The position numbers and the translations under genes were made by a program. The notes below the pieces were generated by a model. The model saw only the letters and a program-made list of their open reading frames with translations. It had not been told where the DNA came from and searched no databases. A stretch of DNA of 32,752 bases from a virus. Of the stretch, positions 9,500-11,189 are shown piece after piece; the first letter of the stretch is position 1; every line of letters starts with the position of its first letter. The stretch lies in the IMG/VR virus record IMGVR_UViG_3300033064_002965, positions 1 to 32,752 of that record. One strand, given 5' to 3'.

Positions 9500-9928
9500 A
9501 TGACATGGTATTATCAAGGAAGTTTAGTAGAATCTCTGCCAGAAGAATGCGTTGGATATGTATACTGTATAGTAAACAATATATCTGGTAGAAAATATAT
9601 TGGAAAAAAACTATCTCAGTTTGCAAAGACATCAATAAAAACAGTAACTTTAAAAAACGGTACTAAAAAGAAAAAAAAGATTCGCAGTAAAGTTGAATCA
9701 GACTGGGCATTGTATTGGTCTAGTTCAGACGAGCTTAAAAAAGATATTGAATTACTCGGCGAACAGAATTTTACAAGAGAGATTTTATTCTATTGTAAAA
9801 GTAAATCCGAATGTACTTATGTAGAGGCCAGAGAACAATTTGCAAGAAAAGTTCTTGAAACAGACGATTATTATAACGGTCAAATAAGTTGCAGAATACA
9901 TCAATCGCATATAAAAGGCAAACTATGA
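9500..9928 (+). CDS. GIY-YIG-type putative nuclease
   Basis: A 142-residue protein with GYVYCIVN at ~19-26 and RKYIGKK at ~31-37, the two strands that name the GIY-YIG nuclease domain (here VYC...YIG). A lysine-rich insertion (KNGTKKKKKIRSK) and a conserved-looking ESDWALYWSSSDELKKDI follow, then REILFYC and a candidate metal-binding Glu in EAREQF. T4-like phages carry similar short stand-alone proteins of unproven function. No DNA-binding repeats are seen, unlike the GIY-YIG gene at 21037. It starts two bases after the methyltransferase stop. Activity is inferred. Confidence 0.65.
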   Translation: MTWYYQGSLVESLPEECVGYVYCIVNNISGRKYIGKKLSQFAKTSIKTVTLKNGTKKKKKIRSKVESDWALYWSSSDELKKDIELLGEQNFTREILFYCKSKSECTYVEAREQFARKVLETDDYYNGQISCRIHQSHIKGKL

Positions 9929-10008
9929 TTAATTGGATAAATCGTAAGTCAGATTTTAACTATCAAAATTCACAGAAATCATATTAAATTCTAAATTCAA
10001 CTTACCCT

Positions 10009-10044
10009 AGTATTAAGTACATAAATATATGTGTACTTAATACT
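10009..10044. terminator. Perfect 13-bp hairpin containing a late-box sequence
   Basis: 10009-10021 pairs perfectly with 10032-10044 around a 10-base loop. No U-tract follows. The octamer CATAAATA (10020-10027) lies across stem and loop, so this could be a terminator-like hairpin, a promoter site, or both. The left arm's AGTATTAAGT recurs at 10081-10090. Confidence 0.45.
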
Positions 10045-10112
10045 CCCATCCCCAGATACCATATCATAATAAACTTATATAGTATTAAGTTCTCCTAAAT
10101 CTTCCAAAACGG

Positions 10113-10141
10113 TTGCGTTGTGTTAAATTATATAGTACAAT
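10113..10141 (+). promoter_or_regulatory. Candidate sigma70-like promoter of the structured RNA
   Basis: TTGCGT (10113-10118), 17-base spacer, TACAAT (10136-10141). Predicted start near 10148, just before the structured, GC-richer segment. Confidence 0.45.
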
Positions 10142-10147
10142 AATTTA

Positions 10148-10690
10148 AAGCATCAAAACATGGCAACGTAACAAAATCAATGTAGTAACGATCATACATG
10201 GCAACGTAGTAACAAGAATTACGCAGAAACAAGCTCGCACCGGCATACATCGGGTGTCTATGAAAACTGGACGAAAGTCGCAGGGACAGCAAATTCTTCC
10301 GCTGCAGGAAGTACTCAATCACCATCCTTCACAGGACGTAGATCGCAATCTGCCGCGATTTGATTGTTTGAAGATAAATTTCATAGAGCTCAAAGAAGGG
10401 AGAAACACCCTACGTTTGTATATATGTTAGCGTATATTATACAAGCCGCCGCCGTTTACGAAAGTAAAAAGACGTAGCTAGAGGTACAGGACGACCGCCT
10501 TGGTAATGCTATAACGCTAATGACTATTTCGAACTCAGATAATGTTTAAAATTTTTCTTTTGCCTGGATAACGGGCAATTATGACTAAGGAATCTAGATA
10601 ATATTATTCAATTGCTTAAATTATTATGTAAAGAAAAAATAATCTGAGCGTTAGCGATAGATTATGTGAGCTGAAGCTCACATTTAAACA
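10148..10690 (+). ncRNA. Candidate large structured phage RNA
   Basis: There is no credible gene between 9929 and 10724. Three 60-base lines within 10201-10500 are 48-53% G+C, clearly above the coding DNA around. Base pairing is dense: a 9-bp helix (10257-10265/10379-10387) encloses a GAAA-loop hairpin (10267-10283, one bulge), a hairpin at 10296-10311 and one at 10342-10359. A 6-bp helix (10410-10415/10472-10477) closes a three-way junction with hairpins 10416-10422/10438-10444 and 10455-10468 (TTTAC-GAAA-GTAAA). Loop bases 10427-10433 can pair with 10514-10520, a pseudoknot. Hairpins follow at 10560-10578, 10639-10665, and an 8-bp TGAA-loop stem (10664-10671/10676-10683) that could end the RNA. 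Size and setting resemble the GOLLD/ROOL class of ornate phage RNAs; identity with a known family cannot be judged by eye. Ends are estimates. Confidence 0.6.
10158..10208 (+). repeat. 13-base direct repeat at the 5' end of the RNA candidate
   Basis: ACATGGCAACGTA occurs at 10158-10170 and 10196-10208, 38 bases apart, each followed within a short distance by GTAAC or AACAA. It may be a duplicated RNA element or protein-binding site. Confidence 0.7.
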
Positions 10691-10696
10691 TAAATA
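10689..10696 (+). promoter_or_regulatory. Late promoter box CATAAATA
   Basis: 7/8 match to the T4 late box, placed right after the hairpin at 10664-10683. Expected start near 10702, 23 bases before the ATG at 10725, leaving AAAGGAA in the leader. Confidence 0.65.
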
Positions 10697-10724
10697 AAAT
10701 CATAAGAATAAAGGAATTATCAAA

Positions 10725-11189
10725 ATGCGAATTGCTGATATCATTAATGAAGAACAAACTTTAGATGAGTTAAGTCTTGCTGGGGTAGGTCAGGGAATTA
10801 AAAAAGCAGCCGGAGTTGTTGGTCGTGGAGCAGTTGCTGGAATTAAAGGAATCAGTAAAGCAGCAGGTTATATACCTGGCGCAATTGCTGGAGTAAAGCA
10901 GCAGTATGCTTCTGGAAAAGCTGCTGGAGCTTCTCAGTTTGGAACAAGTACACCTCCGGCAGCAAGTACACCTCCGGCAGCAAGAAATAACCCATTCAGT
11001 GATCCTGCTAAATTAAAACAATCATTTGACACTATCTCACAAGAATTATCTGGTGGGCAAGCCCAACAGTTAAAGCCTGTGATTAAAAGTATATGGATGC
11101 AGTTAGGCGGAACAAGAATTGAAGGTGCCCAAAATGACAAGGCACCTGTTGTTGAGTTTTATAGTAAATTCTTAGGTGGTAATATTTAA
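10725..11189 (+). CDS. Small virion-associated-like protein, function unknown
   Basis: A 154-residue protein. It starts MRIADIINEE, an N-terminus common to several structural proteins of T4-like aquatic phages, and the INE/LDE triplets fit the (I/L)xE cleavage preference of T4 gp21 protease, so it may be a processed head protein (inference). Residues ~18-65 are Gly/Ala/Lys-rich and helix-like (KKAAGVVGRGAVAGIKGI). A linker with STPPAA twice follows, then a helical C-terminal domain (residues ~90-154). Late promoter and AAGGAATT ribosome binding site upstream. Its stop overlaps, on the other strand, the stop of the gp26 frameshift product. Confidence 0.7.
   Translation: MRIADIINEEQTLDELSLAGVGQGIKKAAGVVGRGAVAGIKGISKAAGYIPGAIAGVKQQYASGKAAGASQFGTSTPPAASTPPAARNNPFSDPAKLKQSFDTISQELSGGQAQQLKPVIKSIWMQLGGTRIEGAQNDKAPVVEFYSKFLGGNI
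10946..10981 (+). repeat. Two perfect 18-base tandem repeats
   Basis: AAGTACACCTCCGGCAGC at 10946-10963 and 10964-10981, giving STPPAA twice in the linker of the preceding gene product. Identity at every base suggests a recent duplication. Confidence 0.9.

Follow-up and report, generated by a model that had tools for sequence, protein, structure and literature searches.

A conserved, pseudoknotted non-coding RNA of T4-like phages contains the Polynucleobacter-1 motif and two matched 7-mers

Introduction

What occupies the long stretch without genes that follows a nuclease-like gene in a T4-like phage genome, and if it is an RNA, to which class does it belong? The window analyzed here is the IMG/VR record IMGVR_UViG_3300033064_002965 in its full length of 32,752 bases, in which a sequence-only reading had marked positions 10148-10690 as a large, intricately folded RNA, either a member or a new relative of the class of GOLLD and ROOL. 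We collected relatives of this region, scored covariation among them, compared them with Rfam 15 and followed the locus into named phages.

A non-coding RNA in a T4-like phage window

The T4-like genes of the window encode homologues of SbcD/gp47 and SbcC/gp46, a GIY-YIG protein and a portal protein, as well as a minus-strand baseplate hub and a structural or tape-measure-like protein. As first noticed, the region is free of long genes from the end of the GIY-YIG ORF at 9928 to an ORF starting at 10725. The RNA and its upstream neighbor are placed as follows, with family A denoting the form of the RNA found in the window.

9500-9928, + strand: GIY-YIG nuclease-like gene (phrog_447, 6e-37), the constant upstream neighbor of family A, outside the RNA
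10221-10682, + strand: whole conserved RNA of family A, ~460 nt (conservation profile, nhmmer and covariation)

Relatives were gathered by pattern scans of viral contigs, and at least 263 of 407 loci matched the profile of the region in nhmmer. Conservation in a profile of 82 regions spans ~10205 to 10680 and peaks at 10481-10500, outside the span of the Rfam model described below. At least 215 full-length copies were aligned and reduced to 179 non-redundant sequences. A conserved reading frame, which would speak for a protein instead, was not found in these sequences: the median longest stop-free run was 69 codons versus 70 codons after shuffling. Together with the covarying, pseudoknotted fold, this bears out the proposal of a large, ornate phage RNA, and 10221-10682 on the + strand is a conserved, pseudoknotted, non-coding RNA.

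The evidence for a structured RNA rests on covariation, not on stability, as the folding energy was unremarkable (z = -1.61; 7 of 100 shuffles folded equally well). The region is richer in G+C than its surroundings, but the maximum in a 150-nt window was 48.7%, and the 53% claimed earlier was not reached at that size. The sigma70-like promoter that had been proposed was not recovered, since no + strand match of at least 9/12 lies just upstream of the RNA. Two repeats were seen on this side: a near-perfect inverted repeat, AGTATTAAGTACAT..ATGTGTACTTAATACT, at 10009-10044 between the GIY-YIG gene and the RNA, and a direct repeat, ACATGGCAACGTA, at 10158-10170 and 10196-10208, just upstream of the RNA.

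Covariation reveals three pseudoknots

Covariation was scored with our own code, not R-scape, using a G-test with average-product correction. The R-scape-like null consisted of 40 alignments in which substitutions were re-placed along the FastTree tree, and the threshold was E≤0.05. Among the 179 relatives, 46 column pairs passed this tree-based null, 31 of which form standard pairs in at least 85% of the sequences; of these compensatory pairs, 12 are internal to the Rfam span, and the other 19 lie beyond it or cross its border. The elements of the fold are listed below.

10223-10225, + strand: 5′ strand of pseudoknot PK1, pairing with 10303-10305, outside the Rfam model (10223/10305 and 10225/10303 covary)
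10303-10305, + strand: 3′ strand of PK1, in the loop of hairpin 10293-10299/10307-10312 (covariation, pairing)
10428-10433, + strand: loop strand of PK2 (95-100% paired per position, with double changes)
10514-10519, + strand: partner strand of PK2 (10431/10516 and 10432/10515 covary at E≤0.05)
10452-10455, + strand: 5′ strand of PK3, a motif common to families A, B and D (98% paired; 10453/10493 covaries, TA128 CG51)
10491-10494, + strand: 3′ strand of PK3, in the loop of hairpin 10482-10484/10498-10500 (covariation, pairing)
10475-10478 with 10508-10511, + strand: helix (97% paired; 10475/10511 is the strongest covariation of the alignment)
10560-10578, + strand: hairpin TTGCC..GGCAA between R1 and R2 (10561/10576 covary; pairing in the window read by eye)
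10665-10682, + strand: terminator-like 3′-terminal hairpin (10665-10670/10677-10682 covary above all null scores)

PK1 is paired in 91% (10223/10305), 87% (10225/10303) and 85% (10224/10304) of the sequences. PK2 corresponds to the kissing loop predicted between 10427-10433 and 10514-10520, which was paired in 94% with double changes in six of seven pairs, versus 22-55% for slid controls; the terminal hairpin of the sequence-only reading was likewise upheld by the strong covariation of 10665-10670/10677-10682. Further hairpins emerged at 10399-10410 and 10423-10436. Other predicted helices did not survive the comparison. The 9-bp long-range helix 10257-10265/10379-10387 was paired in 47% and, slid by 1, in 53%; the junction-closing helix 10410-10415/10472-10477 was paired in 50%, and 10475-10478 pair with 10508-10511 instead. 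Of the two GAAA hairpins, the one at 10267-10283 was retained (10267-69/10281-83 paired in 94-97%; 10272/10277 covaries), but that at 10455-10468 is largely an insertion specific to the window, where few other sequences have letters. By covariation, the RNA consists of a 5′ domain, made up of the Polynucleobacter-1 motif and the new pseudoknot PK1, and a 3′ core with two more pseudoknots, the terminal hairpin and the matched 7-mers R1 and R2 around a hairpin.

The 5′ domain matches Polynucleobacter-1

The Rfam search, suggested in advance as a check, did return a family for the 5′ part of the RNA, but this family is Polynucleobacter-1 and neither GOLLD nor ROOL. It was the sole match in the window at the curated cut-offs.

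10232-10369, + strand: 5′ domain, matching Rfam RF01718 (Polynucleobacter-1) over the full model 1-141 (91.1 bits; gathering cut-off 37)

The 141-nt model spans the 5′ domain only, that is, 138 of the ~460 conserved bases. The RNA is therefore not wholly unknown: its first part was already catalogued, and its second part had gone unnoticed. The match to all 141 positions and the fresh-water origin agree with Polynucleobacter-1, whereas the total length of ~460 nt, the extra pseudoknot 5′ of the model and the added 3′ core depart from it. We take the columns of the Polynucleobacter-1 line in its original table to stand for RNA, cis-regulatory and switch. This line reads 'y, y, ?' and assigns the motif to Burkholderiales from fresh water or estuary (Weinberg et al., 2010; PMC2864571). 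Beyond the 2010 table, we found no mention of Polynucleobacter-1 in the portions of the literature that our searches covered. Unlike the motif as published, the RNA here occurs in phage contigs, and cis-regulation alone is unlikely to be its role at this locus. An orphan Rfam entry of 141 nt is thereby recast as one module, at the 5′ end, of a far larger RNA.

Membership in GOLLD or ROOL was contradicted by the absence of an Rfam 15 match to either, at the curated cut-offs across the whole window or at E≤5 within 9900-10800, and neither family matched any of 17 distinct related loci. Group I and group II introns were also missing among the matches up to E=5 in 9900-10800. The weaker proposal of a new relative stands as an analogy, in that the RNA is large, pseudoknotted and phage-borne with a conserved 3′ and a variable 5′ part, but not as membership. 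According to the parts of PMC12286853 that deal with GOLLD, this RNA has a conserved 3′ region and a less conserved 5′ region, similar to what families A and B show here; unlike GOLLD, which is often >800 nt, the present RNA is ~460 nt and lacks an Rfam match to it in the window and the tested loci. The R1/R2 pair is a feature of this RNA that does not appear in the GOLLD passages of the same paper. GOLLD is often, though not universally, located near tRNA genes, whereas ARAGORN found 0 tRNAs in the 32.7-kb window. The RNA resembles ROOL, as far as described in PMC12286853, in its similar size (a ROOL example is 659 nt), pseudoknots and phage-borne nature, but differs in having no Rfam match to it and a different gene neighborhood.

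A fixed locus with a replaceable 5′ domain

A GIY-YIG homologue is encoded upstream of the RNA in 241 of 261 loci and SbcC/gp46 in 192 of 261, while in 173 of 261 a baseplate-hub homologue is encoded by the opposite strand downstream, more than 600 nt of downstream sequence being available in only 201. The locus order is fixed: gp46, GIY-YIG or EndoVII, the RNA, and the convergent baseplate hub. In family A, the GIY-YIG gene overlaps the RNA by a median of 10 nt, which usually leaves no room for a promoter after this gene, so that the family A RNA may be a processed 3′UTR and not a unit of its own. The interval between the RNA and the hub contains variable + strand ORFs of at least 60 aa in 108 of the 173 hub-linked loci of family A and is possibly an insertion hot spot. 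In the window, an ORF follows the RNA at 10725-11189 (+), and a homologue is found at this position in only 8 of 261 loci; we take its start, MRIADIINEEQTLDEL, to be reminiscent of a T4 capsid-targeting leader.

Through relatives of the GIY-YIG protein we reached loci that match the 3′ half only and have a different 5′ domain (family B). The 3′ domain is common to families A and B, the 5′ domain is not, and family C is a single locus (L424) with ACATGAA as R1 and R2. The 5′ domain is thus replaceable among families A, B and C. Among 617 sequences, at least 296 A and at least 140 B loci scored above 100 bits, some contigs being counted more than once. Nuclease and RNA are separated by ~1 kb in some B loci. 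The large A or B records scanned have one copy each. None of the GenBank phages matched the A, B or C queries in blastn. Exact patterns searched in bacterial chromosomes gave 0 and then 5 matches, none of which fitted the RNA profile; Polynucleobacter may nevertheless carry copies.

Multicopy relatives in named giant phages

Homologues of the hub protein are encoded by 61 GenBank phages, the best of which are giant. Of the five records examined first, four leave ~0.65-1 kb close to the hub gene without annotation, and the fifth, Agrobacterium phage Atu_ph07, shows nothing comparable next to this gene; in most of the giant-phage records examined, the place between gp46 and hub is a gap with little or no annotation. 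The stretch of Salmonella phage Munch matches 31 GenBank records at several places in each. Genome scans with hand-grouping yielded five copies each in Munch, XbC2, CBB, GAP32, SNUABM_44, Hallingskeid and Kaldavass and four in Escherichia phage Sharanji, the recorded host of which is E. coli K-12 MG1655. In the records read, this RNA (family D) is not annotated as such, and two records have short hypothetical genes across the stretch.

The 39 family D copies show strong standard-pair covariation, scored here without the tree-based null. An extended -10 promoter-like element, TG-N1-4-TATAAT, was found upstream of 39 of 39 copies versus 6.5% of random windows; the -35 type, TGAAACG, has been reported for phage CBB as a second class of promoter (PMC5259590). 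These giant-phage RNAs are multicopy, and each has a promoter-like element. No description of them was found in the portions of the published literature that we searched.

Family D occupies the same gp46-hub place as the RNA of the window, with EndoVII on the opposite strand as its neighbor. The core common to A-B and D comprises PK3, in which the family D pair 354/381 (TA20 CG19, n=39) corresponds to 10453/10493, and a hairpin between matched R1 and R2. When the A-B core model was run on 28 loci, its six best matches all fell on family D RNAs with E of 0.065-1.2, and seven of the eight matches listed were on these RNAs. Synteny, the shared motifs and the model scores (best E 0.065) support kinship of family A with family D, weakly so by score. 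Families B, C and D have no Rfam match at the gathering threshold in the loci tested. Polynucleobacter-1 thus gains an owner in the giant T4-like phages, a fixed locus and, if the kinship holds, relatives in named, laboratory-tractable phages such as Sharanji. What large phage RNAs do is a standing question, and a multicopy family with promoter-like elements in phages that infect laboratory strains makes it testable.

Two further elements were noted in this survey. Pseudomonas phages of the PA5oct type (L642, L643 and L644) have another element without annotation, which occurs three times per genome, once at the gp46-hub place, and is present in 11 GenBank records; having no clear R1/R2 and no model match, it was left outside the family. 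Sinorhizobium phage Phosso has ~1 kb of unannotated sequence near the hub gene (L617:6254-7267), which gave no model match.

R1 and R2 change together

Among the strongest covariations were columns that never form standard pairs, and these belong to two 7-mers on either side of the hairpin 10560-10578.

10537-10543, + strand: R1, AGATAAT, preceded by ACTC and followed by G (identical to R2 across the alignment)
10596-10602, + strand: R2, AGATAAT, preceded by ATCT and followed by A, 59 nt past R1 (identical to R1)

The columns vary by identity: 10537/10596 is AA92 GG86, 10541/10600 is AA91 GG87, and 10543/10602 is TT123 AA46 GG9. R1 equals R2 in 178 of 178 parsed RNAs and also in L352 when read by eye, i.e. 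179 of 179. The 12 versions of R1/R2 require at least 57 changes on a tree from which these columns were left out, and the adjacent bases differ constantly between the copies (CTC/TCT in 178 or 179 of 179). A position-based parser applied to all loci, leaving out 43 A and 20 B unparsable loci and 94 duplicates, found R1=R2 in 190 of 197 A loci and in 75 of 82 B loci. Inspected by eye, 13 of the 14 exceptions turned out to be mis-anchored, which leaves L453 (GGATGAT/AGATGAT) as the one genuine exception among 279 loci. In family D, both positions read YC-N-CGTCAR, the first base being TT25 CC14 and the last GG28 AA9 GA2; two of the 39 copies deviate from R1=R2 in the last base, and the base preceding CGTCA often deviates as well. 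R varies among the paralogues of a genome, yet R1 and R2 mostly agree inside each RNA, and the rule is most simply explained in cis.

Several readings of the 7-mers were discarded. Many variants are of the type codon-TRA and prompted a stop-codon or ribosome-hop reading, which was rejected, as was a tmRNA-like tag, because the distance from the ACGCT landmark, read by eye, is not divisible by three and because one variant, in L414, is AGACGAA. A late promoter found no support, as the own variant of each locus was not enriched in the flanks. In one paralogue type (L630 and L631; XbC2 and Munch), R1 itself supplies the 5′ side of a hairpin that resembles a terminator and has a T run, and this RNA might end after R1 and before R2.

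The agreement between the two 7-mers amounts to a sharp and so far unexplained constraint. We tentatively suggest a self-matching code, somewhat more doubtful than the RNA function proposed below, in which two seven-base words may take many sequences provided that they remain equal inside the same molecule; this would be a new constraint, of identity and not of complementarity. Behind such a code may stand, for example, two strands that take turns on a single docking surface, or an exchange of DNA strands in the gene itself. If true, a whole family of large giant-phage RNAs would use it.

Possible functions of the RNA

Our preferred reading, which has a little less than an even chance of being right, is that of a stand-alone non-coding RNA of ~460 nt in giant T4-like phages, which would act in trans during infection as a folded RNA particle. 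By analogy with GOLLD or ROOL, it may work as a scaffold with a constant 3′ core and a varying 5′ module, and the role of R1 and R2 would be a cis one, confined to their own molecule, where they would form pseudo-symmetric contacts or else serve a single docking site as strands that can replace each other. A trans-acting RNA is favored by the lack of a leader role in at least 65 of 173 loci, the lack of a tie to GIY-YIG in family D, and a conserved fold with a replaceable 5′ part.

A motif that recurs unchanged is commonly the sign of a duplicated binding site, and R1 and R2 could be duplicate seeds for, or sites bound by, one common trans partner, be it a phage or host RNA or a protein. We consider such a partner unlikely. 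The reverse complement of R was not enriched near the RNA (10 of 178 versus 9.2 expected), nor was the own 7-mer in 1.86 Mb of flanks or, relative to a Markov expectation, in ten large records. The best of 75 orthologue groups tried as partners contained the own 7-mer in 5 of 6 members, but at unrelated positions without a common site. That R differs among paralogues of one genome also argues against one common partner.

A cis-regulatory leader or riboswitch controlling a co-directional downstream gene is distinctly unlikely, although the ORF at 10725 begins 43 nt past the terminal hairpin and genes follow the paralogues in Munch. Of the 173 hub-linked loci, 65 lack any + strand ORF of at least 60 aa in the interval from the RNA to the convergent hub, and the RNA is not a leader there; the downstream protein of the window is found in only 8 of 261 loci. 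No known leader equals this RNA in size and pseudoknots, which we also count against such a role. For it speaks the 'y' that Polynucleobacter-1 received in the 2010 table in what we take to be the cis-regulation column (PMC2864571).

Alternatively, R1, the hairpin and R2 might be a DNA element inside the RNA gene, such as a recombination core or a slippage or replication site, in which strand exchange demands identity. An arbitrary sequence with exact identity of two direct copies is what strand exchange needs, and the recombination nucleases gp46/47 and EndoVII adjoin the locus. We regard this as quite improbable, because repeated gene conversion should erase the fixed CTC/TCT difference in the flanks and because the three elements are embedded in a covarying RNA fold.

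That the RNA is merely another copy of Polynucleobacter-1, as 91.1 bits to RF01718 might imply, is very improbable, given that Rfam covers 138 of ~460 conserved bases, that of the 31 supported pairs 19 fall beyond its span or reach across its border and that the B, C and D forms tested match no Rfam family at the gathering threshold.

The TnpB omega RNA acts together with a nuclease, and the overlap of the family A RNA with the 3′ end of the nuclease gene, directly upstream in 241 of 261 loci, resembles it, but GIY-YIG is not the TnpB fold and the RNA has no guide-like 3′ end. An element in which the GIY-YIG nuclease and the RNA act jointly is barely credible, as the fixed location gives no sign of mobility, ~1 kb separates the two in some B loci, family D is uncoupled with EndoVII on the other strand as neighbor, the nuclease is located elsewhere in five GenBank phage loci, and, where relatives of the nuclease were inspected at 11 loci that lack a complete RNA match, 10 have other, protein-like sequence in its place.
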